DNA of 64,000 bases, taken from a virus. The first letter of the stretch is position 1. Each line of letters starts with the position of its first letter. Location: positions 1 to 64,000 of IMG/VR virus record IMGVR_UViG_3300046557_000512. One strand, 5' to 3'. Below are positions 6,763 to 62,440 of this stretch, piece after piece. Under the pieces are notes generated by a model. It did not search any database, was not told the origin of the DNA, and saw nothing but the letters and a program-made list of their open reading frames with translations. Made by a program: the position numbers and the translations under genes.

Positions 6763-7856
6763 TCGGCCTCCGGGGCCAGGGCCGCGAGCGCCGCTGCTAC
6801 GTCATCCTCGTTGTCGCTGAGCTCAGGCGCGACCTGCGCACCATTCTCAGCGATGTCGAGCAAACGACCAAGCGCATCGGGCTGGGCATTCAGGATCGGC
6901 GACAGCTGCGACTGGTAGAGCTTCTTGCCTTCCCAGACGATATATGCACCGGACGTCTCCAGCTTTCCTTTTGCGCGCAGATGCGTGAGCATCGAGTCGA
7001 TCACGTCGATGTAGCCGGTGCCGTCTTCGTTGAACTTGAACTCGAACTCCGTTTTCATGAACGGGCGATAGGTCTTGTTCTTGATCGCCTCGAGGCGGAT
7101 CGTCTGCCCGGTGACCTCCTTGGTGTCCTTCTTGTTGTCCTTGTTCATCGAGCGGGCGAGATAGATCTTCACGGCGTCGTAATAGAACATCGCCTCACCA
7201 CCCGGCGTGTAGCGCGGGTCGCCATGCAGCACGCCTGGCTTCAGGCGCATCTGGTTGAGGAAGATCGCGAGGATGTTGTTCTCGACCACGAACTGGTTGA
7301 ACGCCGGCAGCTCCTGGCTGAAAGCTGTCGCGAGCGCGAGCTTGTCGCGCATGTTCAGCGCCTCGCCGGGCTTGCGCGGCTCGAGCTTAGCGGCCGGGAC
7401 CATCGCAGCCGCAGAGTCGAACACGCAGACCAACGGAGCTTCGAAGGGGATGACGTCAGCTTTGCGGATCGTGCCCATCCAATCGATGGCCTGGTCGAAC
7501 GATTCCTCAAGGCACCGCGGGCGGCGATAGGTCCAGATGCCGGGCTCGATCGAGCCACCGAAGCGTTCGAACAGCGACGGAATAAAGGTGCGCTCGTGGT
7601 CATGGAAAGCGCCAGCGCCGCCAGCGATCTGTGCTTCCTTGATGACGTGCTGCGAAAGCAGCGTCTTACCGGCCGAGGCGGGCGAGGCTATCTCGACGAT
7701 GCGCGAGGACTTGAGGCCGCCCCCGCGATACTTTCCCGACAGGGCGAAGTCGACGTTGGGGATGCCGGTCGACAGATGGAGACCGCTGTCGGCAATGACG
7801 TCGGAGGTAACCTTCCCCTTTGTCAGGGCGGCAGCGAGGGCGTTGGCGATGCTCAT
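6759..7856 (-). CDS. RecA/UvsX-like strand-exchange recombinase
   Basis: A 365-residue RecA-fold protein, the central enzyme of homologous pairing. The start is MSIANALAA at 7856, overlapping the exonuclease stop as ATGA; a 28-residue in-frame extension upstream is discarded. The P-loop reads SPASAGKT, with Ser where RecA has the first Gly. HDHERTF corresponds to the catalytic Glu region, VCVFDSAAAM to Walker B, and LNQMRLKPGV to DNA-binding loop L2. The C-terminal tail is acidic. With SSB, UvsY-like and SbcCD-like proteins nearby, the phage carries its own T4-like recombination system. Confidence 0.88.
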   Translation of the reverse strand: MSIANALAAALTKGKVTSDVIADSGLHLSTGIPNVDFALSGKYRGGGLKSSRIVEIASPASAGKTLLSQHVIKEAQIAGGAGAFHDHERTFIPSLFERFGGSIEPGIWTYRRPRCLEESFDQAIDWMGTIRKADVIPFEAPLVCVFDSAAAMVPAAKLEPRKPGEALNMRDKLALATAFSQELPAFNQFVVENNILAIFLNQMRLKPGVLHGDPRYTPGGEAMFYYDAVKIYLARSMNKDNKKDTKEVTGQTIRLEAIKNKTYRPFMKTEFEFKFNEDGTGYIDVIDSMLTHLRAKGKLETSGAYIVWEGKKLYQSQLSPILNAQPDALGRLLDIAENGAQVAPELSDNEDDVAAALAALAPEAE

Positions 7857-8809
7857 GCGAATTTTTCCTGTGCTTGGATGAAAGGCTTTGCCCACACCTC
7901 GACGTTGCGGAGGATCGAACCGAACGACAGCTGAGCGCACAGCTCGCTGAAGGCTTTCAGGTCGATGTCGCCGCGGGTCGCGCGAAGATTGGTGGGCTGG
8001 GGAATGGAGGGGTGGCCGAGATCCATCAGTTCGAGCGCAAACTCGAACCGGACCTGAGCTTGGGTGTCGGCGTGGAATTTCTTCAGGCCGCTCCAGGTGC
8101 GGGGCATGACGCCGTGGTGGTGCAGCATGCGCCCCTCCACCGTCGCGATGTTGGCCTGCAGGAACTCGTGAACGTCATCGAACACGGCGAGCATGTCGAT
8201 CGCGCCCTTCTCACCGACGCCCGTCTTGGGCTTCACATTGTCGCCGTCGTCGCCCTGCAGGGCCTTCGCGTGAATGAAAGCCTTCTGGGTGCGGAACTTG
8301 GTGAACTCGTGGAAGTTGGCCGCGGTGCATTTGCGATCGATCTTGTGATCGTCCCACACGACACCGTTCTCGACGAGCTGGATCCAGTCTTTGTCGCCGG
8401 TGACCAGGATGACCTGATCGCCCATGCGCAGCGCGCGTCGCGTCATGATGGCGGCGAGATCGTCCGCTTCCATGTTGCCCGCGATCAGCTGGGGCATGCC
8501 GAGGTAATGAAGTGCGCGAACCAATAGGCTCTTTTGCGCCTTGTAGCGCTCGCGATCCGCGACCTTCTCGGGGGTGTCGTCGCGGGTGCCCTTGTAATCA
8601 GCGAAGCGCTCGTAGCGCCAGCTGCGACCGTCCCACAGGGTGACCGGCCGCGATATGGAGCTCTCGAGGATCTTGCGGATCGTCCCAAGCGCGCCATAGA
8701 TCGCGGTGGTCTCCTGTGAGCCGGCGGTGAGACGCTTACCCTTTCGGGCCGAGGCGGCGTAACCGATAGAATTGCCGTCGATGTAGGTCCGAAGGGTCAT
8801 GTGTGTCAT
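7853..8809 (-). CDS. 5'-3' exonuclease / flap endonuclease (FEN-like)
   Basis: About 318 residues. LRTYIDGNSIGYAA at the N-terminus, DYKGTRDDTP, MEADDLAAIMTRRAL, LVTGDKDWIQLV and a helix-hairpin-helix-like TGVGEKGAIDML give the acidic metal sites and the DNA-binding turn of the PolI 5'-exonuclease/RNase H (T4 rnh) family. It probably removes RNA primers and 5' flaps. The start is unusual: the family core begins at once, no SD exists, and the candidate ATGs (8809 or 8800) lie inside the conserved leader element at 8800-8819, which suggests leaderless translation. Confidence 0.82.
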   Translation of the reverse strand: MTHMTLRTYIDGNSIGYAASARKGKRLTAGSQETTAIYGALGTIRKILESSISRPVTLWDGRSWRYERFADYKGTRDDTPEKVADRERYKAQKSLLVRALHYLGMPQLIAGNMEADDLAAIMTRRALRMGDQVILVTGDKDWIQLVENGVVWDDHKIDRKCTAANFHEFTKFRTQKAFIHAKALQGDDGDNVKPKTGVGEKGAIDMLAVFDDVHEFLQANIATVEGRMLHHHGVMPRTWSGLKKFHADTQAQVRFEFALELMDLGHPSIPQPTNLRATRGDIDLKAFSELCAQLSFGSILRNVEVWAKPFIQAQEKFA

Positions 8810-8819
8810 TCACCATGCA
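8800..8819 (-). promoter_or_regulatory. Conserved leader element, copy 3 (exonuclease-RecA)
   Basis: Minus strand reads TGCATGGTGAATGACACACA and is followed directly by TGACC. The exonuclease start codon is inside the element, and a terminator ends 3 nt upstream. Confidence 0.75.
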
Positions 8820-8821
8820 AA

Positions 8822-8858
8822 GGGGGCGAGGCTGGGTCGCTTAATTGACCTCGCCCCC
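8822..8858 (-). terminator. Rho-independent-like terminator after the SSB gene
   Basis: A 10-bp GC stem (GGGGGCGAGG / CCTCGCCCCC) with a 17-nt loop, followed on the minus strand by TTT. It lies between the SSB-like stop and the next leader element. Confidence 0.6.
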
Positions 8859-8899
8859 AACACGATCGCCGACAAGGAGCCGGCCGGCGATCGCACTAC

Positions 8900-13600: not shown

Positions 13601-14046
13601 ATCAGGTGTCGCGCGCTGTCCTGACGCTGCACAGCGCTCTCCAGGTCACCGGTCGTCAGCACGACATGCTCGGTCGCGACCAGTTCGCGAATGTCATCCC
13701 AGGTAACGCGCGCGTTGTAGTAGAAGCGATCGGCCTCGAAGCCGCGGGAGATCAGGCGATAGATCGATTGCAGTCCAACGAGGTCGATCGGCCATAGCTT
13801 GATGAAGCTCAGCGTCGCTTCCTTCTCGGCAGCGTCGACCACGCGGATGCGCGCGCCCACAACGACCTTCTTGCCGGCCTTGGCGAACGCCTTGCTCGCG
13901 TCGATCAGCGAGGACACGGACATCGTGTCGCAGATGCCGACGACGTCGGTCTGCAGATCCTCGGCGATCTTGACGAGGTTCTTCACAGCGATCGTTGATT
14001 CGCCGAGCGAAAAGTCGGTGCGGCCGCCAAGGGCAGGGTAGATCAT
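10636..14046 (-). CDS. dnaE: DNA polymerase III alpha subunit with C-terminal UDG-like domain
   Basis: 1136 residues; the replicative polymerase. The N-terminal PHP-like domain (1-70) has lost the usual HxHS motif (here LGGRTDFS), so it is probably inactive. The Pol core has GPGRGSVGGS (about 370) and the catalytic PDADLDF (411-417), with the third Asp in LVKLDVLGLATLDVF. After the finger and HhH regions, residues about 985-1130 (MVILDAPLNDYD; WTWCARRPKRKG; PPVILTLGPQSTRMFF; VIIGFNPSQIYHD) match the layout of family 4/5 uracil-DNA glycosylases. No OB-fold tail is evident. The start overlaps the preceding gene as ATGA. Confidence 0.88.
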   Translation of the reverse strand: MIYPALGGRTDFSLGESTIAVKNLVKIAEDLQTDVVGICDTMSVSSLIDASKAFAKAGKKVVVGARIRVVDAAEKEATLSFIKLWPIDLVGLQSIYRLISRGFEADRFYYNARVTWDDIRELVATEHVVLTTGDLESAVQRQDSARHLMQLNETARFAAVFYELVPSATPYFSRQNHRARTIGQAMGAEPITIQPMFWEGDNALVYSINASIAENRPYFDYLRPATDFVPLAVEPLVKAAKSAADALTVRYNTAGAQGAQASLDAFVTGIKNTARLVDLCQYSWAKQDPCLPVIATDPDAALLEACKTGIRERFTAPVFGHQPTPQEIADTYVPRLKFELDTLMRLGFSQYFLLVADLVRWSKAQGILVGPGRGSVGGSLVAYLMGITDVDPIRFDLLFERFINPDRLDLPDADLDFMSTRREEVIRYLSDKYGEARVAGIVNYNTMGARDALRSVLRIHDRLDLAPITKFIGDTHGISATLEEAKQTVGEVEMFAEEHPLVWSQAVALEGKMRAFGQHAAGVVVAGEDIVNRAVIERRSDGRVINWDKRVSEDQGLVKLDVLGLATLDVFDYALKLIFQRHSKKIDLNSLDLFDADTLAVFSKAKTAGVFQFEGASVRRLLKQMAKSDTLTFEDLVALNALNRPGPLDAGLCEAYIERRAGIAPVTYDNPILEPVLRATYGVICYQEQVMQTARALCGFTPGEADVLRKAMGKKDPVMMAQQRDKFVQGAQAVSNMQPNAAIALFDSIEKFAGYAFNRSHAVEYTLIAYQAAWLKSHYLIEFYAAALSVSHPDKLPSIIKQANEDGITIIPPNINVSTAMFEPINDVIIAAPLSAVMHVSSKCAEAIVEARTSPEPVITEKSNGLRGKAREMIQTQWGPGRFVSIDDVRARLPGRVLTSRGIENLDKVGAFSLIEPGQLSATDARRKRDQIELMPGVMDQAVVAERVIAVDGPTGDAMANVAGDMFAALGNAAVPCHPGDDPRFMVILDAPLNDYDPLPKAYSFVEFIRPALTDAGLQVDHACWTWCARRPKRKGEREVPASEMATALPFLKREIDILKPPVILTLGPQSTRMFFPDLKGGQAEHVGKVAFSADLDATVIIGFNPSQIYHDEGKRETLAGLFNQVKRLIDGGCAP

Positions 14047-14594
14047 AGGAGCTCCAGGACGGGGCCGGCGTAGCGTGCGCGACCCATTGAGATGAGAAAG
14101 GAAGCCTCGCGGCGAACCGCGCGCATCGAATAGCTTTCAGTGTGTTGGCGATGCTCGCGAAGTTCCGCAGCCAGGTCGTCAAGCGTCGCGGGTGAACTTC
14201 TCAGACGACCGACGACAATGCCGAGATTGCGTGACAGCGTCGCGAGTGCGTTGCGGTCGCAGGTGCGAGGGTCAATCTTGTCGCGACCACAGCGCGCTGC
14301 TGTCGCTTCGTGCGTCGCGTCGCGGTAATCATGCGCGAGACCGACCGCGATCAATGACTCATCTCGCAGCGCACGCTTGCGCGTCGCTCGCTCGCCGCGG
14401 GTCAGCCAGGCGTGGCTCATCGGCTTGCCTTCGGCGTCGTTGAAGCGGTCAAGCAACATGATGACCTTGGGGCGCAGGTCCGCCACGCGATCTTGGCAAC
14501 CGACGCGCGCGGGACAGCCTTGGCAGGTTGGGGTCTTGTGGTCGTAGGCGATCATCGAGCCAAAACAACCGGGTGGGCTTTGCATGTGTGTCAC
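14043..14594 (-). CDS. Hypothetical Cys-rich (metal-binding?) protein, 183 aa
   Basis: The N-terminus holds CFGSMIAYD followed by CQGCPARVGC, four cysteines spaced as in a zinc or Fe-S site. The remainder is helical and Arg-rich. The start is inside the leader element: GTG at 14594 or ATG at 14585, neither with an SD. It is translationally coupled to DnaE through ATGA, so it may be a polymerase accessory. Function not recognised. Confidence 0.55.
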   Translation of the reverse strand: MTHMQSPPGCFGSMIAYDHKTPTCQGCPARVGCQDRVADLRPKVIMLLDRFNDAEGKPMSHAWLTRGERATRKRALRDESLIAVGLAHDYRDATHEATAARCGRDKIDPRTCDRNALATLSRNLGIVVGRLRSSPATLDDLAAELREHRQHTESYSMRAVRREASFLISMGRARYAGPVLELL

Positions 14595-14604
14595 TTACCA
14601 TGCG
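14585..14604 (-). promoter_or_regulatory. Conserved leader element, copy 6 (DnaE operon)
   Basis: Minus strand reads CGCATGGTAAGTGACACACA and continues TGC. The first gene's start codon is inside or at the end of the element, as with the exonuclease gene. Confidence 0.75.
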
Positions 14605-14629
14605 CGAGCATAAGAGAGAAGCAAAAAAT

Positions 14630-14653
14630 GGGCGGCCCCTTTCGAGACCGCCC
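14630..14653 (-). terminator. Terminator with GAAA tetraloop after AAA+ gene
   Basis: Minus strand GGGCGGTCTC-GAAA-GGGGCCGCCC gives a 10-bp stem (with G-U pairs) capped by GAAA, followed by ATTTTTT. It closes the CobS-like transcription unit. A close relative occurs at 51157-51182. Confidence 0.75.
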
Positions 14654-14698
14654 GAGGTTGAGGAGAGGGATTTCAGGGCAACCCCCAAGCCCGTCACG

Positions 14699-18991: not shown

Positions 18992-19588
18992 TTAGATCGC
19001 GGTCACTGCCTCTTTGAGGGCACGGCGCTGCTTGGGATCCAAGCCATTTTCGACCAGCTCGGGTCGACTTTCCCGAATGACATCCATGATGCCGAGCTCG
19101 GGGATAGTCAGCCAGCGTCGGATCGCCCGCGAGTCCGCGGCCGCTTCCTTCAGCACGCCGTAGTGGTCGCGCGACAGATTCGACAACGGGATGCCGGCGG
19201 CGGCTTGCAGGTCGTCGAAGACCATCTGTTCGTCGTCAGCCATACCCTTAGCCAGGTTCGCCTTCGAGCCCACCAGAATGCGCAGGAAGTCGATGTTGGG
19301 ATATCGCTGCTCAAGCACGGCCAGCAGGAACTCAGCCGCGTCGAGCTTGATGAGCCGAACGAAGTCCGGCACACGCTCGATCGGGATCGGGGCTCGGCCG
19401 CTCGCCATGTGGCTGATCACGACAGACGACTTGTAGCCGAGGTTCTTCGCCAGGGCTCGCTGGCTGATGCCAGAGTCCCTGTCGAGTTTCTCGACGCCGT
19501 CCTTGAACATCCTCGACGCTTTGGTGTGCGCCAGGGGATAGTCGTCGTTCTGTGCTGCGGTCGGCAGCTTGATAACACTTGCGCTCAT
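18992..19588 (-). CDS. XRE-family HTH regulator, 198 aa
   Basis: Start at ATG 19588 (MSASVIKLP), with GGAG upstream; an in-frame extension to 19657 runs through the leader element. Residues about 40-75 (SGISQRALAKNLGYKSSVVISHMASGRAPIP) form a lambda-repressor-like helix-turn-helix. The C-terminal part (about 100 residues) has no known effector domain. It sits between the CobS/T-like genes and the rep origin, making it the best candidate in this window for a copy-number or lysogeny regulator. Target sites are not known. Confidence 0.7.
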   Translation of the reverse strand: MSASVIKLPTAAQNDDYPLAHTKASRMFKDGVEKLDRDSGISQRALAKNLGYKSSVVISHMASGRAPIPIERVPDFVRLIKLDAAEFLLAVLEQRYPNIDFLRILVGSKANLAKGMADDEQMVFDDLQAAAGIPLSNLSRDHYGVLKEAAADSRAIRRWLTIPELGIMDVIRESRPELVENGLDPKQRRALKEAVTAI

Positions 19589-19610
19589 TTTCTTTCTTAC
19601 TCCGTCCAAT

Positions 19611-19630
19611 GTTGTGTAGAACGGTATGCA
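19611..19630 (-). promoter_or_regulatory. Conserved leader element, copy 9 (XRE gene)
   Basis: Minus strand reads TGCATACCGTTCTACACAAC, a weaker match, 22 nt before the XRE start. Confidence 0.5.
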
Positions 19631-19739
19631 GGTGTTTGATAGCTGCTTCACACACACCCCGCAAGGGGAGAAATGCGCAAGTCAGTCGCCGCAATTCTGC
19701 GAACGAATAGTGAACACCATGCGCGAGATCGCCGCACGG

Positions 19740-19768
19740 ACGGAGCCCCTTCAGGGGCGGAGCTCCGT
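19740..19768. repeat. Stem-loop near the origin
   Basis: ACGGAG / CTCCGT outer arms enclose CCCC-TTCA-GGGG. It lies in the gene-free stretch 19589-20040, between the XRE gene and the iterons. It could be a terminator remnant, an antisense-RNA hairpin or part of the origin. Confidence 0.35.
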
Positions 19769-19864
19769 TCGGGCGGCGCGGTTAAGAGTCACTGTTTGAA
19801 TCTATTTGTTACAGAGTTAGGGTTGCAATTCGCACGTAATTACAAAGCGCTGCGATGCAACATC

Positions 19865-19997
19865 GTGTTCGATAGACGAACCTTTGTGTGCGATAGACGG
19901 CGGTCTGGTGTTCGATAGACGGGTGCCATTGTGTTCGATAGACGGGCGTGGCGACCCTTCGTGTTCGATAGACGGGCGAATGTGTTCGATAGACGAA
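19865..19997 (+). repeat. Iteron array A: six direct copies
   Basis: Six direct repeats of GTGTKCGATAGACGRR start at 19865, 19886, 19908, 19931, 19961 and 19982. Spacing is mostly 21-23 bp, i.e. two helical turns, as expected for initiator-binding iterons. The array lies just downstream of the rep gene. It is the best candidate for the plasmid-type replication origin core. Confidence 0.88.
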
Positions 19998-20040
19998 TGT
20001 GTTGGCTTTTCCGGTGCGCGCGGGTGCCAATTCCGTCGAA

Positions 20041-21135
20041 TCAGGCGTCAGGGTCGAGCTTCATATTGCCTGCGAGTCGGTCCATCAGTTGCCCCAACTG
20101 CTGCGAAAGAGCGGCGCGCTCCTCGGGAGATTGCTCCTCGGCCGCTGGCGGCTCCTCCACTCGTCTATCGGACACAAGCGCCGGCGCGACTGGTCGCCTA
20201 TCGGACACAAGCACAGACTCGATCCTGCGGCCCGGCGACCGGAGAGGGGCTGGTCGTCTATCGGACACATTGAGCCGTCGCGTGAACACTGCCTTGAGCG
20301 ATCCGATGCCGCGGACCTTGCTGATATTCTGAACCGGTTCGTTCGTCGGGTCCCCGATCAGCGCGACATGGAAATGATATTCGGGCAGCTCGTCGTCAGC
20401 CACCGCCTGGGTGACGATGCGTTTGAAGTTGCGCATGTCGTCGAGCTCGTAGCCGATCTTCTCGGCGAGCCGCGAGAGGTTGATCGCGAAGCTGGTCTTG
20501 TTGCCGCAATGCTTGCGCGCCAGTTCGTAGATGCGGCGCAGCACGCCGGAGGTAAGCTGAAAATAGTCCTGGTCGATCATCAGGATCGTCCGATCGTCGG
20601 CGACCTGGCGGTAGACCCAGTCCTCGAGCTCGACCTCGACCATGCCGAGGACCCTCTTGCCGTTGGGGAGGGTGCGCTCGCTCATGCGCCCCGATTTGAT
20701 CCAGGAGAAGAACGTGCGCTCGGTCTGGCCGTTCTTTGTGGTGATGTTGGTGCGGATCGATGTCGACTGCAGCCGATCGAGCGTAAGCGCGAGATCCTCA
20801 TAGGCTCGACCACCCGAGGACCGGCCGCAGGCGACGAAGAAATCGTGCGCGTGGAACCGGACCTTGGGCGATACCTCCTGACCTTCGTTCTGCAGCCTGG
20901 TGATCTGCGAGAAGATGTAGATCAGAAGGTCCTTGTCCCAGATCGTCGCCAAGCCGCGGTGGCCGGGCTGCACCTCGATGCGGGTCGTGCCGTCGTCGTA
21001 GATGCGCGCCTCGAACGCAGGCTTCTTCGAGATGGAGAAGAAGGGGTATTCCATCAGGCTGAGGACGTCGCGGTAGCTCAGCCGATCCTGGGGATCGAGG
21101 AACAGATCTTCAACGAGCTTGACCACAGCAGCCAT
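20041..21135 (-). CDS. repA: Plasmid replication initiator RepA (RPA family)
   Basis: 364 residues, ATG with SD GGGAGTGGCGA. EYPFFSISKKPAFEARIYDDG, HRGLATIWDKDLLIYIFSQ, FHAHDFFVACGRSSGGRAYEDL, SWIKSG and IDQDYFQLTSGVLRRIYELARKHCG match the alphaproteobacterial 'Replication initiator protein A' family, with paired winged helices that bind iterons. Unusually, near the C-terminus the gene contains three more iteron sequences in the opposite orientation, each read as V-S-D-R-R. Iteron arrays flank the gene on both sides, so RepA probably both starts replication and represses its own promoter. Confidence 0.9.
   Translation of the reverse strand: MAAVVKLVEDLFLDPQDRLSYRDVLSLMEYPFFSISKKPAFEARIYDDGTTRIEVQPGHRGLATIWDKDLLIYIFSQITRLQNEGQEVSPKVRFHAHDFFVACGRSSGGRAYEDLALTLDRLQSTSIRTNITTKNGQTERTFFSWIKSGRMSERTLPNGKRVLGMVEVELEDWVYRQVADDRTILMIDQDYFQLTSGVLRRIYELARKHCGNKTSFAINLSRLAEKIGYELDDMRNFKRIVTQAVADDELPEYHFHVALIGDPTNEPVQNISKVRGIGSLKAVFTRRLNVSDRRPAPLRSPGRRIESVLVSDRRPVAPALVSDRRVEEPPAAEEQSPEERAALSQQLGQLMDRLAGNMKLDPDA
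20161..20268 (-). repeat. Iteron array B: three inverted copies inside repA
   Basis: TCGYCTATCGGACAC at 20161, 20194 and 20254 is the reverse complement of the iteron core. On the repA coding strand each reads GTGTCCGATAGRCGA, in frame as VSDRR. Orientation is opposite to arrays A and C. Confidence 0.85.
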
Positions 21136-37289: not shown

Positions 37290-37325
37290 ATTATAGGTTA
37301 TTGCATGTGTGTTGTCACCTATGCA
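37290..37325 (-). promoter_or_regulatory. Conserved leader element, copy 15 (fibre gene) plus -10 box
   Basis: Minus strand reads TGCATAGGTGACAACACACA (37306-37325). A perfect TATAAT lies at 37290-37295, with GTGACA 17 bp upstream of it. This is the clearest case of a sigma70-like pair overlapping the element. Confidence 0.75.
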
Positions 37326-40300: not shown

Positions 40301-40986
40301 AGGATCGTTTGAACGTCGGTGAAGTTGCTGATCGGCTGCTCATTGAGCTCGAGGTCATAGACGCCCTCAATCTCCCCATCGTTGAGCACAGCTCGCAGAT
40401 AGAGATACTGATCGTCGCCGACGTTCTCCGTATACGTGTCGGCAAAGTTTCCGCCGGTGCGGAACTCGCCATAAACCACTTGATACGGGATGTTCTCGGT
40501 CGCGCTATTCTTCGCGCCGTCGATACCATAGGAATTATTGTTCTGGTCTGCCGGCGTTTTCGGCTTCGGCGTCAGGAGCAGAGCGTTGATGACCCCGGCG
40601 ACCGCCATTCCGACGGCCAACGCGCCGGGGATGCCGATGATCGGGGCGAGAAAGACGAGTGAGGCCACGACGGCCGCGATCGTCACAACCATGCGAAGGA
40701 TCGACTTCAGGCCGTCGCCTCCCTGCGGGACCAGCAGCAAACCAATGACGTCACCGGCGTCGATCGCCACCGTCTTGGCGTCAGCGAGGTCGACCTCACG
40801 CCCATTGACGAAAACCATCCACTCGCACTCGGCCGGCAAGCCATCGAGATATGTCGCCAGCGGCTGACCCGTTTGATGGACCAGCTCGTGGATCTCGACT
40901 GTCGACGGCGCGAAGACGTCGTAGAGCAGGCGCAGCTCGACCTCATCGGCCGCGCAGGTCGACGCAGGAGCGAGAATTTCCCTCAT
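37330..40986 (-). CDS. Tail tip host-specificity protein, gpJ-like
   Basis: 1218 residues. Residues 1-90 look like a beta-grasp, tail-assembly-I-like domain (VEIHELVHQTGQPLATYLDGL...GLLLVPQGG), followed by a hydrophobic hairpin (about 100-150; VTIAAVVASLVFLAPIIGIPGALAVGMAV). The central J-like domain starts at SATENIPYQVVYGEFRTGGNF. Two fibronectin III-like domains are near the end. This protein caps the tail tube and contacts the host. The fused N-terminal I-like and hydrophobic segments would explain why no separate gpI gene lies between the K- and J-like genes. Confidence 0.8.
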   Translation of the reverse strand: MREILAPASTCAADEVELRLLYDVFAPSTVEIHELVHQTGQPLATYLDGLPAECEWMVFVNGREVDLADAKTVAIDAGDVIGLLLVPQGGDGLKSILRMVVTIAAVVASLVFLAPIIGIPGALAVGMAVAGVINALLLTPKPKTPADQNNNSYGIDGAKNSATENIPYQVVYGEFRTGGNFADTYTENVGDDQYLYLRAVLNDGEIEGVYDLELNEQPISNFTDVQTILKKGTLTEDVNPWFGRSLRQVNKSVKIDTADVIHQTTTPVDHVRFDVSFTTGLVNVDKKKGTYSTRSVTFVMEYRELDPVTKQPVSGWTGASGNPSNYQNSNWFNNPLINGLLMKVWASKGYQQSAALETGAEARYRIDGGEWISMSPTIADPGAYGYNFDPSGDGSVVGQTDISPVGGDYYEIQNPGGGDVNIDIPGATITQVVVYPHNQTGQITVQDSRTRAIRKSFESGPLNLAYHEVRIRRTTATSTDQYKVDEVYLTDVAEIQTEQVALRGTANLSLRIKLSEQLNQIPTVTARTRGCILQEYDVEGNKTVKRWSANPAWICLDILCGEQRGCGFPLDQIDWPAWVDFAQYCVDKGITFNGVFAESSNVGDALATVLRVAYAAPVPLGRRLSVAIDRPRDPVTMFGAGNIHKGTFQVTYMGMTDRANEFELSFYDKNDRNKEKTIRYVDPKAVLFNEAKRTAALELPGVDNIAQATAQLWRFIYANRVLIRSIDFETGLESINLTIGENALISHPMMEWSQSGRTAFGSTTTRVQLDQEVNLIPGKQYALMVHFDTTAAGTAVISNVVGNRILLPTNASLSTAAPPMRVTCGTADAEVVDLVKGGTYDTILLDSTVGFTVGAQVAFWDTDAVIECPVVAPAAEVTQTFVDVSTPLPGAPDALRNFIFGEVTDTPRIYTLIGIEGTGIEKRKLSFGEYNELVYGPPEVEIPTPVTSLSDRAVGHVQTVLFDYERLVEANRKSISARVHWSAAGIRNYAGADVYMGVNGGPLRPIGSAVNVAEYMVTANPGDVVEFRVCAYNKHGDRAPLPTAPGVRGTISVTYSDLDPPEEIAVVPKNFQVDGTADVVISPPADATGVTGYEVQYRKSTAADWSSLGVHSSLLVTITGLETGGWVAQVRSVSETSESPWVQKSFDIAIAPGSIMADFLSQNNRNGAAIPAPTTEVGTDVDHTVNTDGSADISFEWGWTGDEASIDGFEVMVTSSAT

Positions 40987-41396
40987 TGGGGCACGCCGTA
41001 TGTGTAAGCGGCCAAGGGCGTGAACGGCCCCGAGAGGAGCCGCGGCGCGGTTACCCCGCCTTCGATCGCGTGAATGAAGCGGTCAGAGCCGAGGCAGACA
41101 CCGACATGGGCGCCAACACCCTCGAGCCGGAACGTCACCAACGACATCGGCGTGCCCATCGGCACACGCTGCCAACGCGCTTCATTGGCGCTGATCAATG
41201 CAGCCACCTCTTCGTTCGTGCCAGGCGACGTGAAGTCCGGCACGACGATCCCGGCACGACGGAACATCTCGATCGCCAGGCCGTAGCAATCATAGCTGTT
41301 CGGGCCGCGCGCGCCACGCTCAAACGGCTTGCCGAGAAGGTCGATATAGGGCGGGATCATCGCGCAATCATAACACGCATGCGTGTTGTTTGCCAT
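40983..41396 (-). CDS. NlpC/P60 peptidase, tail assembly gpK-like
   Basis: About 137 residues. NSYDCYGLAIEMFRRAG holds the catalytic Cys, and VGAHVGVCLGSDRFIHAI the His, of NlpC/P60 cysteine peptidases. In lambda-like phages gpK lies between gpL and gpJ, as here. The frame opens inside the leader element (MANNTHACYD), and no SD is visible before that or before MIPPYIDLLGK at 41360, which would be a more usual family start. It probably cuts peptidoglycan during tail penetration. Confidence 0.8.
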   Translation of the reverse strand: MANNTHACYDCAMIPPYIDLLGKPFERGARGPNSYDCYGLAIEMFRRAGIVVPDFTSPGTNEEVAALISANEARWQRVPMGTPMSLVTFRLEGVGAHVGVCLGSDRFIHAIEGGVTAPRLLSGPFTPLAAYTYGVPQ

Positions 41397-41399
41397 GCG
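41367..41399 (-). promoter_or_regulatory. Conserved leader element, copy 16 (gpK-J) with -10-like box
   Basis: Minus strand reads CGCATGGCAAACAACACGCA (41380-41399); TATGAT lies at 41367-41372. The same arrangement occurs at the tail tube gene. Confidence 0.7.
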
Positions 41400-54814: not shown

Positions 54815-54850
54815 AGTTTAGCACAATGCATGCGTGTTGGCTACCATGCA
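54815..54850 (-). promoter_or_regulatory. Conserved leader element, copy 21 (portal) with -10-like box
   Basis: Minus strand reads TGCATGGTAGCCAACACGCA (54831-54850) then TGC; TAAACT at 54815-54820. No obvious SD before the portal ATG. Confidence 0.7.
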
Positions 54851-57255: not shown

Positions 57256-58181
57256 GGCAGCACCAGGGGCTTGGTCGGATCCTGCGCGTCGAAGGCGCGA
57301 AGCGGCAGCACCGCCGGCAGCGACCGGCCGGTCTCAGGGTTCTGCCAGACGCCGTAGAGCGGGCTCGCAAGCGTCATTTGCTGCAGCTGCCCCAGGCAGT
57401 CGCGCATCGACATGTTCGCGACGCGCCGCTCCCCTACTCCGCCCAGTGATTTGCCGGTCTTTTCGAGGCTCGAGTTCTTGTAATAGAAATCCTTGGTCAG
57501 GCGCTCGATCACCGCGCGCTCGCCCTCGGGCAGCTCCATCCATTCAGCCAGGATCGCTTCAAGATCGGCGGGATCGGCCTTGAACGTCGATCGGAAGAAG
57601 CGGATGCCGACGTCGTACTTGTTCGAGCGCATCGGCTTGACGAACTGGAAGCCTGCGCGGTGCGCGAACTGGTTGTATTTCGACATCGAGGATTGGATCT
57701 CGATGTAGCGTTTGCCCTCCATCCGTGCGGCCAGATTGGTGAAGCGGTATGCGAGACCAGCGCCGCGATACATCGTGTCGACCACGACGCGCGCGACCAC
57801 CGACATGTTCGCGTTGATCCACTTCATCCGATATTGATTGGTGATCTTATTGTCCTGGCCGGTGGGCTTCAGCTTCGGAAACAGGACATGGCGTTCCTTC
57901 AGAAGAAGCTTGGGGCTCGCCATCACCAACACGCCGACGAGCTCGTCGCCGAGCTTCAACGTGAAGTGGTGGCTTCCCGCCGGCAGCGTGCCGTGCTGCT
58001 TGTAGTGGAGGCCCTCGAGCACGCGCCAATCCTCGATCGTGCCGCGCTGGACGGTCATGTCGTCGAGCAACGAGAGCTTGGGGCGCGCGATGCCGCGCTC
58101 GAACACCCAAGGTGCTTCGAGCCTTGCAGATTCGGGGTTGTCAGCGATCTGCTTGATCGCTAGATGTGTGTCATTGACCAT
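57252..58181 (-). CDS. GNAT acetyltransferase (COG2401/Mom-like context)
   Basis: 309 residues if the ATG at 58181, inside the leader element and overlapping the ABC stop, is used; no SD is visible, so coupling or leaderless start is assumed. HYKQHGTLPAGSHHFTLKLGDELVGVLVMASP and VVARVVVDTMYRGAGLAYRFTNLAA give the GNAT acetyl-CoA loop (YRGAGLA). YIEIQSSMSKYNQFAHRAGFQFV is the last strand region. In COG2401 an ABC ATPase is fused to such a GNAT domain; here the two are adjacent genes. Phage Mu Mom, which modifies DNA, also has a GNAT fold. Confidence 0.65.
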   Translation of the reverse strand: MVNDTHLAIKQIADNPESARLEAPWVFERGIARPKLSLLDDMTVQRGTIEDWRVLEGLHYKQHGTLPAGSHHFTLKLGDELVGVLVMASPKLLLKERHVLFPKLKPTGQDNKITNQYRMKWINANMSVVARVVVDTMYRGAGLAYRFTNLAARMEGKRYIEIQSSMSKYNQFAHRAGFQFVKPMRSNKYDVGIRFFRSTFKADPADLEAILAEWMELPEGERAVIERLTKDFYYKNSSLEKTGKSLGGVGERRVANMSMRDCLGQLQQMTLASPLYGVWQNPETGRSLPAVLPLRAFDAQDPTKPLVLP

Positions 58182-58184
58182 GCA
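58165..58184 (-). promoter_or_regulatory. Conserved leader element, copy 23 (GNAT)
   Basis: Minus strand reads TGCATGGTCAATGACACACA. It spans the ABC stop codon and contains the GNAT start codon. Confidence 0.7.
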
Positions 58185-59252: not shown

Positions 59253-59922
59253 TGAGCCATCCTTCGAATGCGTCGAGGCCAGTCTTGCCCGTCTGATCCT
59301 CGATCTTGGCGATGAAGCGCTTGAACAACGGCTCCATCCTGACCGGCACCGCCTTGAAGCCGAATACCTTGGAGATCGGCGTCATCGCGTCATCGACCGC
59401 GGCGACCTTGCCGGCAGTCTCGGCATCTTGCGCATCGATCTCGGCATCGAGATCGCCGGCGAGTCCGCCCATGTTCATTGCCCCCAGGTCCTCGGTCAGG
59501 AATCCAAGTTCATGATCATCGAGGCCCAGGGACGCGAGATCGACGTCGTCGGCGTTCGCCAGGCGCTCAAGTTCCTCGGCGAGAAAGCCGCTGTCGTATT
59601 CGGTGCCTTGGGTCTTGTTGTCGGCGATACGCGCGGCGTCAGCCTGGTTCTTGCTGAGGTGCTTCGCCCATTTCACCGGGAACTCGACGTGACCCATCTT
59701 CAGCAGGCACTGGAAGCGCTTGTGCCCGGCGATGATGATCCCGTCGATGTCTACGATGATCGGGTTGAACAGACCATATTCGCGGATCGACTTGATCGTC
59801 GCCTCGACGTCTGCACTGGAGTGGATCTTGTTGTTCTTGGCGTAGGGGTGAATGCGGTCGGCCGTCCACATCTCGGTGGGCAGCAACTGCAGGCCGTAGG
59901 GGTCATGTGTGGCGATCACCAT
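59239..59922 (-). CDS. ParB-fold protein B
   Basis: 227 residues. KIHSSADVEATIKSIREYGLFNPIIVDIDGIIIAGHKRFQCLLKMGHVEFPVKWAKHLSKNQADAARIADNKT is the ParB/Srx domain with a GHKR signature, of the type usually found next to or fused with phage DNA methyltransferases. No methyltransferase follows; instead an unknown protein, an ABC ATPase and a GNAT follow. It may bind CTP/ATP or act on DNA. The start is the ATG inside the leader element, without SD. Confidence 0.75.
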   Translation of the reverse strand: MVIATHDPYGLQLLPTEMWTADRIHPYAKNNKIHSSADVEATIKSIREYGLFNPIIVDIDGIIIAGHKRFQCLLKMGHVEFPVKWAKHLSKNQADAARIADNKTQGTEYDSGFLAEELERLANADDVDLASLGLDDHELGFLTEDLGAMNMGGLAGDLDAEIDAQDAETAGKVAAVDDAMTPISKVFGFKAVPVRMEPLFKRFIAKIEDQTGKTGLDAFEGWLNAHA

Positions 59923-59925
59923 GCA
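59906..59925 (-). promoter_or_regulatory. Conserved leader element, copy 24 (ParB B)
   Basis: Minus strand reads TGCATGGTGATCGCCACACA. It contains the presumed start codon of ParB B. Confidence 0.7.
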
Positions 59926-60070: not shown

Positions 60071-60722
60071 CGTCCACCTCCTTACTCAGAATGTGCATGA
60101 GCGCGTCGCCGGCGTTGGTGAGCTCGTCGGCTTGGGTGAACCCCTGGGCCTTCATGACACCGCCGATCAGCGCGCGGGCGCGAGCAGCATCAGCCAGCGT
60201 CAGCTTGAAGCGGAGAATCTCGTGCGTCTTGGGGTCCTTGGTCGGCGCGTCCGTCACCGTGTCCATGTCGCCCGCCTCCATTGGGGCGTCGTCCAGGTCC
60301 AAGCCAGAGATGTCGACGCTCAGCGAAGCGGTGAAGGCCGCGACATCGTGGTCGCTCCAGGGCATCACCGCGGTGATGTCGATATCGTCGAGGTCCTCGA
60401 GCAACGAGGCCATCTTGAGCGCATCGTCGTGACCGTAGCGCGCGTTATCGAGCAGGCCGATCTCCATCGCACGGGCGTCGTCGATCTTGCCGAGGTTCCA
60501 GATCGGCACCTCGCTGAAATCGAGATGAACCGCCTGCTCGACACGGTGCCAGCCACCGATCGACTGCACCGATCCGTCATCGAGTTCGCGCACCAGGACG
60601 GGTCGAAAGAACCCGTGGCGCCGAAGCGATTCACGGATCTTCAGCTCCGCCTCATGGCTGACCACGTTGGTGTTCCAGGGATTGGGGCGAATTTCCCTGG
60701 GGTCTATTGTGTCATTACGCAT
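60063..60722 (-). CDS. ParB-fold protein A
   Basis: 219 residues. IDPREIRPNPWNTNVVSHEAELKIRESLRRHGFFRPVLVRELDDGSVQSIGGWHRVEQAVHLDFSEVPIWNLG is a complete ParB-like domain with a GGWHR signature. The acidic helical C-terminus (LEDLDDIDITAVMPWSDHDVAAF) lacks an HTH, unlike true plasmid ParB. The start ATG is inside the leader element (MRNDTIDPREIRPNPW) and the domain begins at once, so a longer leader is impossible. First gene of the cluster running to 56968. Confidence 0.75.
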   Translation of the reverse strand: MRNDTIDPREIRPNPWNTNVVSHEAELKIRESLRRHGFFRPVLVRELDDGSVQSIGGWHRVEQAVHLDFSEVPIWNLGKIDDARAMEIGLLDNARYGHDDALKMASLLEDLDDIDITAVMPWSDHDVAAFTASLSVDISGLDLDDAPMEAGDMDTVTDAPTKDPKTHEILRFKLTLADAARARALIGGVMKAQGFTQADELTNAGDALMHILSKEVDDG

Positions 60723-60725
60723 GCA
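60706..60725 (-). promoter_or_regulatory. Conserved leader element, copy 25 (ParB A cluster)
   Basis: Minus strand reads TGCATGCGTAATGACACAAT. It forms a divergent pair with the plus-strand copy at 60814-60833. Confidence 0.65.
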
Positions 60726-60813
60726 CTAGCGCCGGTGAGGTTTTCATGCCCGCCAGTATAGGCGATCTGCCTACGGAAATCCAGCGTTCTTTACCGAAAT
60801 CATCTACACAAAA

Positions 60814-60833
60814 CGCAGGGTAGATGACACACG
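60814..60833 (+). promoter_or_regulatory. Conserved leader element, copy 26 (helicase, plus strand)
   Basis: Plus strand reads CGCAGGGTAGATGACACACG. The helicase ATG at 60824 is inside it, in the same position as the exonuclease ATG in copy 3. Confidence 0.65.
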
Positions 60834-62440
60834 CACAGTTGCAAACCTACACGCTTTTTGGTAGAGTATTACCGATGAGGCCAGTCGCTCAGTTACTCGC
60901 AAACCCAGTCGTCGCCCAAGTTCGCGGCGTCGACGATGCCGTGCGTCTGCAGCTGTCCGAGGCGATGAGCTACATCATCGAGGGACACGAGCACATGGGT
61001 GCGCCCGGCTGGGATGGTCGCTCGACGCTCTACGACTGGAACACCAACAAATTCCCCGCCGGCTTCCAGGCAACGGCCGAGGCCGTGCTCAAAGCCGCTG
61101 GTTACGACGTTCAGATCCTCAAGCATCCCCTGCCCGCCCCGCTGGGGCCGATGCCCACGCAAGAGAATAGTCTCGTCGACGATTTCGGGCCGAACCCGAG
61201 CTACGACTATCAGTTCCTCGCCCCGCTGATCCTTGAGCGCCACGGCACGATGATTGCGCGCTGCGCGACCGGCGCCGGCAAGAGCCGCATTGCGAAGCTG
61301 TGCATCAAGCGCATCGGCCGCAAGACGCTGTTCATGACCACGCGCCAGGTGCTCCTCTACCAGATGGGGGAAGCGCTCGAGGCGGCCGGCTTCAAGGTCA
61401 GCTATGTCGGCGATGGCTCGTGGGACACCTCCGGCGACGTCGTGCTCGGCATGGTGCAGACGCTTGTCGATCGCCTGACCGAGCAGCCCAAAGGCATCAG
61501 CATGTCGATGTCGCCCACGCAGATCAGCCAGGCGACGGACAAGTGGCGCGCGCGGCGCGATGAGTGCGTCGATTTCCTCCAGGAGATCGAGTTTGTCATC
61601 GGCGAGGAAGCGCACGAGGCCGGCGGCAACAGCTACTTCACCGTCCTCAAGAATTGCCGCAAGGCCGCGTATCGACTGGCTTTAACCGGCACGCCGATGA
61701 TGCGCGACGGCGAAAGCAACGCGCGTTTGATCGCCATGTTCGGCCCGATCCGAATGGAAGTGACCGAGGAGATGCTGATCCAGCGCGGCATTCTCGCGCG
61801 ACCGATCTTCAAGATCCTCGATTCGGAAGCGCCACCCACCCTGCGCCGCGGCTCCGCGTGGCAGAAAGCCGAGCAGATCGGCATCGTAGACAACATGTGG
61901 CGCAACAAGCGCATTTGCGCTGAAGCGATCCGCGCAAGCCGGTTCGGTCTGTCGACGATGATCCTGGTCAAGCGCAAGGTCCACGGCGAGATCCTGAAAA
62001 ACATCCTCGCCGGCGCGGGCATGCGCGTAGAATACATCTACGGCGACAGCAACAAGACGAAGCGCGACAAGGCGCTGAAAGACATGCGCGACGGCAAGTT
62101 GGATGTGCTGATCGGCTCGACGATCCTTGACGTGGGTGTCGACGTGCCGGCGATCGGCATGTTGATCCTGGCTGGCGGCGGCAAAGCAGAGGTTGCGATC
62201 CGCCAGCGCATCGGTCGCGGGCTCCGCGCGAAGAAGCGCGGCCCCAACGTCTGCTACGTGCTCGATTTCCGCGACAAGATGAACAAGCACCTGGCGGGCC
62301 ACAGCGCCCAGCGGCTCGAGATCCTGAAGCAGACCCCAGGCTTCGCTGAGAACATCCTGCCCAAGGGCAAGGACTTCGACTTCATTGGCGACGGGTTCGT
62401 TGCCGCGAACGACAACACCAGACAGGCAGCTGCAGCGTGA
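60824..62440 (+). CDS. SF2 DNA helicase, UvsW-like
   Basis: 538 residues. Motif I CATGAGKSRIA (about residue 150), motif II IGEEAHEAGG (Glu in place of the first Asp of DEAH), motif III LTGTPMMRDGE, then in domain 2 STILDVGVDVPAIGMLILAGGGKAEVAIRQRIGRGLR (motifs V and VI). UvsW-type helicases migrate branched DNA and help shift replication from origin to recombination mode, which suits the RecA/SbcCD/UvsY set here. The start ATG is inside the leader element; an alternative ATG is MRPVAQLLA at 60874. Confidence 0.82.
   Translation: MTHAQLQTYTLFGRVLPMRPVAQLLANPVVAQVRGVDDAVRLQLSEAMSYIIEGHEHMGAPGWDGRSTLYDWNTNKFPAGFQATAEAVLKAAGYDVQILKHPLPAPLGPMPTQENSLVDDFGPNPSYDYQFLAPLILERHGTMIARCATGAGKSRIAKLCIKRIGRKTLFMTTRQVLLYQMGEALEAAGFKVSYVGDGSWDTSGDVVLGMVQTLVDRLTEQPKGISMSMSPTQISQATDKWRARRDECVDFLQEIEFVIGEEAHEAGGNSYFTVLKNCRKAAYRLALTGTPMMRDGESNARLIAMFGPIRMEVTEEMLIQRGILARPIFKILDSEAPPTLRRGSAWQKAEQIGIVDNMWRNKRICAEAIRASRFGLSTMILVKRKVHGEILKNILAGAGMRVEYIYGDSNKTKRDKALKDMRDGKLDVLIGSTILDVGVDVPAIGMLILAGGGKAEVAIRQRIGRGLRAKKRGPNVCYVLDFRDKMNKHLAGHSAQRLEILKQTPGFAENILPKGKDFDFIGDGFVAANDNTRQAAAA

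Follow-up and report, generated by a model that had tools for sequence, protein, structure and literature searches.

The exonuclease locus and its genome

The locus carries, on the minus strand, a gene for a 5'-3' exonuclease whose probable start codon lies inside a copy of a 24-bp repeated element, with a hairpin on the 5' side of this copy (Table 1). The window, i.e. the whole stretch of 64,000 bases that was analysed, corresponds to bases 1-64000 of an IMG/VR record of 80,301 bases (G000). Judged by its gene content, the virus is a member of the SSU5-like phage-plasmid family of Sphingomonas: a portal, DnaE, a ParB pair, a CobS/CobT-like pair and a replication initiator are all encoded. DnaE, portal, the ParB pair, CobS/CobT-like proteins, UvsX and SbcCD match those of SSU5-like phage-plasmids and of Rhizobium phages such as B1VFA. 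Relatives with a 71% identical terminase are found in Sphingomonas assemblies, which makes this genus, or one close to it, the probable host. The main relative used for comparison (G001, 109 kb) is collinear with G000. A further related virus record of 103 kb (G008; DnaE 55% identical, GC 0.49) contains neither the element nor the helix-turn-helix (HTH) gene described below. Rfam and tRNA scans gave no match.

Table 1. Coordinates, in the window, of the element copies, promoters and genes discussed in the text. Transcription starts (+1) are predicted.
Feature	Position	Strand	Remark
5'-3' exonuclease (phrog_107)	7853..8800	-	start inside element, conserved in G001
Element at exonuclease gene	8796..8819	-	ATG 8800-8798 at element positions 20-22 (predicted +1)
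Hairpin GGGGGCGAGG/CCTCGCCCCC	8822..8860	-	between SSB and exonuclease genes, directly 5' of element; read from sequence
Cys-rich protein (phrog_3616, weak match)	14043..14585	-	
Element at Cys-rich gene	14581..14604	-	ATG 14585 at positions 20-22; follows terminator-like hairpin and T-tract
HTH (XRE/lambda-repressor-like) protein	18992..19588	-	198 aa; candidate element-binding repressor
Tail-fiber -10 TATAAT	37290..37295	-	ATG 37283 at +1
Element at tail-fiber promoter	37302..37325	-	spans -42..-19; embedded -35 GTGACA
gpK-like tail protein	40983..41360	-	corrected start 41360
gpK extended -10 TG-T-TATGAT	41367..41372	-	ATG 41360 after 6 nt (+1)
Element upstream of gpK-like gene	41376..41399	-	
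Portal extended -10 TG-C-TAAACT	54815..54820	-	ATG 54808 at +1
Element spanning portal promoter	54827..54850	-	
Element over GNAT/ABC-ATPase start	58161..58184	-	ATG 58181 at position 4; operon-internal, overlaps end of upstream gene
Element over ParB B start	59902..59925	-	ATG 59922 at position 4; immediately past upstream stop
Degenerate element over ParB A start	60702..60725	-	ATG 60722 at position 4
TATACT, likely -10 for ParB A	60755..60760	-	about 35 nt upstream of element; suggested by the sequence
Element upstream of UvsW	60814..60837	+	not the start site
UvsW promoter TTGCAA-N17-TAGAGT	60839..60867	+	ATG 60875 at +2

A conserved 24-bp element

The element is real and conserved across the phage-plasmid family. 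Its consensus, derived from 84 copies, is TGCATRGTNRAYRACACACAYGCA (positions 1-24), and about 29 copies are present in the 80-kb record and about 47 in its 109-kb relative. When searched as a pattern, it was counted 24 and 36 times, respectively, and the reversed pattern 0 times. The reversed control also gave 0 in all 12 records searched, 11 of which contain the element; besides G000 and G001 these are nine related records, Sphingomonas assemblies included (NFR04 weakly). The arms TGCAT...AYGCA form an imperfect dyad. Copies are mostly intergenic and oriented with transcription, and some lie over start or stop codons inside operons. One copy in reverse orientation is placed immediately upstream of the ATP-dependent DNA ligase gene (66480-66499 of G000, minus strand). 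Three more copies were seen on a second contig of the Sphingomonas MAG that contains G004 (G004:C126, 8597-16866), which may belong to the same or to another phage-plasmid.

Start codons inside the element

Start codons were judged by comparing stop-to-stop ORFs with those of orthologues. An earlier note on this DNA had placed the starts of seven genes inside the element; five of these (exonuclease, Cys-rich, GNAT, ParB A and ParB B) stood up to the comparison, and those of the gpK-like and UvsW genes had to be moved out of it. In-element start codons are almost exclusively found at positions 4 and 20, and the five retained ones fall in these two registers, which the earlier note had lumped together. 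The ATG triplets at positions 4 and 20 belong to the arms of the dyad, so that the element by itself could have produced some of the starts found there. The earliest Shine-Dalgarno sequences (SDs) behind the element begin at position 22; this fits an mRNA start near position 20, although conservation of the element alone would give the same result.

The exonuclease and the Cys-rich protein use position 20. The exonuclease ORFs of G000 and G001, the two genomes to which conservation of this in-element start is limited, have element position 11 as their upstream limit, and IDGNS, a conserved block, comes right after, which points to ATG 8800 as the start; the other codon suggested earlier, 8809, is found in G000 only and is less likely. 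In the case of the Cys-rich gene, ATG 14585 is at position 20 in all eight lineages compared (G000, G001, G003, G004, G006, G007, G009 and G010), and a conserved GCF block follows within a few codons, while the codon proposed next to it, 14594, has a GTG counterpart in G004 and G007 only. The first call of the gene caller, 14555, was corrected on the basis of the orthologues. None of the eight lineages has an SD in front of this gene. A terminator-like hairpin with a T-tract abuts its 5' side in the same number of lineages (14610-14665 in the window). Alternatively, a TATGCT/TATGAT sequence upstream of the gene in G000 and G004 could direct an mRNA with a leader of about 20 nt. With the ATG at the predicted +1 (see below), the geometry supports a leaderless mRNA for both the exonuclease and the Cys-rich gene.

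The other three genes have their ATG at position 4. The GNAT start is conserved there in four out of four lineages, and that of ParB B in three, NFR04 having GTG. For ParB A, ATG 60722 is the sole usable start in G000 ahead of the conserved PNPWNTN block, and its position is not conserved in relatives. The idea that the element unites promoter and start codon, giving a leaderless mRNA, is supported for the position-20 genes and not for these three. ParB B and GNAT cannot be leaderless from the element, because their operon-internal ATG precedes the element's own predicted +1; their starts would have to be read from upstream transcripts, probably by coupling. ParB A would instead be served by the TATACT upstream of its element copy. 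A 10-codon ORF, MKTSPALVHA (ATGCGTAA; 60747-60715, minus strand), begins 7 nt past this TATACT and overlaps the ParB A start, and is possibly a leaderless mini-ORF coupled to ParB A. The absence of an SD claimed for all these genes holds for the position-20 ones, and ParB B has a GAGG about 11 nt upstream.

Start codons just behind a predicted promoter

The ORFs orthologous to the gpK-like gene in G001, G004 and G006 are closed upstream, so its start must be ATG 41360 and not 41396, which was both the in-element codon of the earlier note and the first call of the gene caller. UvsW orthologues align to ATG 60875, outside the element, rather than to 60824. Both corrected starts are located directly behind a -10 hexamer, as are those of the tail-fiber and portal genes. 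A scan for -10 hexamers covering all called starts in ten records, with 20 shuffles as the null, found a gap of 5-8 nt between -10 and ATG in 17 genes as compared to 2.65 expected (maximum 6 in the shuffles). Fiber, gpK, portal and UvsW genes make up most of this set, and they mostly lie right behind the element or an element-like sequence; gpK of G000 is one more after correction of its start. Two of these 17 hits are probably due to chance: they are identical, one in G010 and one in G011, and have an SD. No peak at 5-8 nt occurs in the phages B1VFA and Cyrano.

The fiber, gpK, portal and UvsW genes have no SD in the upstream region. The portal arrangement is found in five out of five lineages: the element contains a -35-like hexamer, which reads GTGACA in three of them, and the spacer is 17 bp wherever counted. 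By the cut-off used for Zymomonas (start at most 5 nt from the +1 defined by the -10), both the 5-8 nt gap and the position-20 geometry would count as leaderless. These data support the prediction that fiber, gpK, portal and UvsW mRNAs are leaderless, with the ATG at about +1 to +3 of a sigma-70-like promoter. As a prediction, leaderless translation is well supported in these phages, with a geometry other than that envisaged earlier.

Probable promoter hexamers in two registers

Copies of the element without a downstream -10 (class A) show a TTG at -15/-16 relative to element position 1. Over all copies of the element, it is present in 35 of 170, i.e. a clear TTG in only about a fifth of them, whereas the best adjacent column pair reached at most 21 in 2000 circular rotations, and the enrichment is seen separately in independent genomes. 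When positions 8-13 (TARAYR) are taken as the -10, the spacer to this TTG is 16-17 bp. The choice of CATRGT (positions 3-8) was discarded: it leaves the TTG enrichment at an unusual distance, and positions 8-13 put it at -34/-35. Measured against E. coli promoters, TARAYR would be a weak -10, and the missing T at -7 would disqualify it there. It does fit the Sphingomonadales sigma-A -10 (TANNNN, no T-7). The sigma-A consensus of Zymomonas mobilis (Sphingomonadales) is TTGNNN-17-TANNNN, with a 6-bp discriminator and no T-7 (PMC7566282), and the -10 of neither Z. mobilis nor Caulobacter has a conserved base at -7. Leaderless transcripts number 119 in Zymomonas (PMC7566282) and 375 in Caulobacter (PMC4117421). 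Since a Zymomonas-type -10 is followed by a 6-bp discriminator, we infer that transcription would start at A20, the first base of the ATG at positions 20-22.

We propose that the element works in two registers. In early and middle genes (register A), positions 8-13 would be the -10 of a host sigma-A promoter and the mRNA would start at A20; genes with ATG at 20-22, such as the exonuclease and Cys-rich genes, would yield a leaderless mRNA, and the others mostly a short leader, often with an SD right past the element. In structural genes (register B, or class B), the same positions would serve as the -35, with a good -10 located 17 bp later in most copies and 14 bp later in a few, e.g. gpK; here the fiber, gpK and portal ATGs would be at about +1 to +3. 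UvsW would represent a third arrangement, in which the element is just upstream of a complete promoter, and the ParB B and GNAT copies would be operon-internal operators overlapping a coupled start.

It might be argued that the element has no role beyond that of a repressor operator or roadblock of the P1 C1 or L5 stoperator type, that other promoters transcribe these genes and that position-20 starts are leadered by read-through. Its dispersed, directional and intergenic copies, sometimes over operon-internal start or stop codons, the HTH protein encoded in the same phages and the fact that about half of the Zymomonas leaderless units have a leadered transcript too would agree with this. We consider it unlikely, because TTG is enriched at the -35 distance from A20 and because the Cys-rich gene combines terminator-like hairpins upstream with the lack of an SD in 8/8 lineages.

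The two registers also bear on the possibility that the element is the promoter of a phage RNA polymerase, or of a dedicated sigma factor, its start codons being incidental. One contiguous, conserved element of about 24 bp per transcription unit, oriented with transcription, does resemble the promoters of single-subunit RNA polymerases, and B1VFA, the relative from Rhizobium, has a gene for a sigma-70-family protein. However, one polymerase would not read an element that takes two registers with respect to the promoter hexamers, and a search found no homologue of the B1VFA sigma factor in G000. A search for a T7-like RNA polymerase gave no match, its Pfam controls matching nowhere either, and the large genes examined have other functions, some large structural genes being outside the scan. 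Such a dedicated transcription system is, in our opinion, quite improbable.

The CACACA run is conserved in both classes, being predicted to be untranscribed in class A and to lie in the -35/-10 spacer in class B. In either class it precedes the predicted +1, so that the run is probably a DNA signal; a role as an enhancer of translation, as had been put forward, is not supported, the published CA effect (PMC9031893, citing Martin-Farmer and Janssen) being one of repeats located downstream of the start codon. The name "leader element" is a misnomer. Another reading makes the element a translation signal in a 5' leader (CA-rich enhancer or start-associated type) of mRNAs that begin upstream. Starts do cluster at and behind it, and in enteric bacteria translation is boosted by CA repeats close to starts and by ACA motifs ahead of SDs. 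This reading is very doubtful, since CACACA is equally retained in the structural-gene spacers, the Cys-rich copies of eight lineages have terminator-like hairpins directly on their upstream side and the consensus has no SD-like core.

A candidate binding protein

The dyad arms occupy -19..-15 and +1..+5 in class A, and -42..-38 and -23..-19 in class B. Contacts with RNA polymerase alone are insufficient to account for arms whose position differs between classes, and a separate DNA-binding protein would explain them. The likely binder is the HTH protein of Table 1, on the basis of its co-occurrence with the element in few independent lineages. Its gene was found in G000, G001, G003, G004, NFR04, G006, G007, G009 and G010; it was found neither in G008, which has no element, nor in G011, a partial record which has it. 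B1VFA, without the element, was not among the matches of a tblastn search of the phage collection with this protein. A stretch YKxSVVxSHMAxGRxPIP is invariant in five lineages. The N-terminal domain was modelled with pLDDT >80 (the model is moderate outside residues 20-95), and in a Foldseek search it came closest to lambda repressor chains (probability 1.00, E 0.04), all E-values being above 0.01. A sequence search of the PDB gave no significant match, and a pattern search of IMG/VR for relatives gave nothing, though direct comparison shows orthologues. The protein is weakly similar to CYRAN_45 of phage Cyrano, which has the same place beside CobT/CobS-like genes and is listed as a putative master repressor, expressed in the lysogen. 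A large non-coding stretch (19588-20041) separates the HTH gene from a replication-initiator-like gene. Near this gap, G001 and G003 have an element copy that faces away from the HTH gene.

Taken as a whole, we assign a probability of roughly 0.7 to the reading that the element is a dispersed 24-bp operator with an embedded promoter hexamer in two registers, with leaderless genes and the HTH protein as probable binder. At odds slightly short of even, one module of about 24 bp would fuse operator, promoter hexamer, transcription start and start codon, in two registers, and one repressor could control replication and repair genes together with leaderless structural genes throughout the genome, sometimes while sitting atop the start codon. 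The conserved promoter geometry predicts leaderless portal, tail-fiber, gpK-like, UvsW and nuclease mRNAs linked to a dispersed operator. If this is true, these phages would offer a compact test system for leaderless translation during phage takeover in alphaproteobacteria, a rule for fixing gene starts in such phage-plasmid genomes and a candidate immunity system for the Sphingomonas family.

Comparison with known systems

A close parallel may be drawn with phage-plasmid P1, whose C1 repressor has 22 dispersed asymmetric operators of 17 bp (PMC8546580). In both cases many directional sites are spread genome-wide at transcription units and an HTH repressor, here a candidate, is encoded. The element differs in having its own consensus, which is an imperfect dyad and not the 17-bp ATTGCTCTAATAAATTT, and in embedding a promoter hexamer and sometimes a start codon; its binding by the HTH protein is putative. 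The stoperators of mycobacteriophage L5, asymmetric sites of 13 bp at which elongation is blocked (PMC9283540), are also short, intergenic and oriented with transcription, some within operons. Their sequence is unrelated, and the 24-bp imperfect dyad is in addition part of a promoter. The start-associated sequences of cluster K phages (13 bp, 3-7 bp before starts; PMC3203893) are likewise repeated directional motifs tied to start codons. They have the potential to pair with 16S rRNA; the element, in contrast, lacks an SD-like core and seems to work at the DNA level.

The known leaderless phage mRNAs are mostly those of regulators such as cI and cro. Examples are lambda cI and the cI and cro of PY54 (PMC4488713). 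As in these, the ATG is predicted here to be at the mRNA 5' end and is tied to operator/promoter regions, but the genes are structural, nuclease and helicase genes, predicted to be leaderless on an element that is found genome-wide. The promoters themselves resemble the sigma-A promoters of Zymomonas and Caulobacter (TTGNNN-17-TANNNN, 6-bp discriminator, many leaderless mRNAs; PMC7566282, PMC4117421), and differ from them in being joined to a phage operator. In Rhizobium phage B1VFA (MT770738.1), a different palindrome, TAAGTAAnnnnTTACTTA, is near-perfect and present in about 40 copies at transcription units. These copies follow GCGYTATAA in many of the non-structural genes and are flanked by TTG and TA-T hexamers in the structural ones. 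Since this palindrome also occurs in two promoter registers, dispersed two-register operators may be a wider trait.
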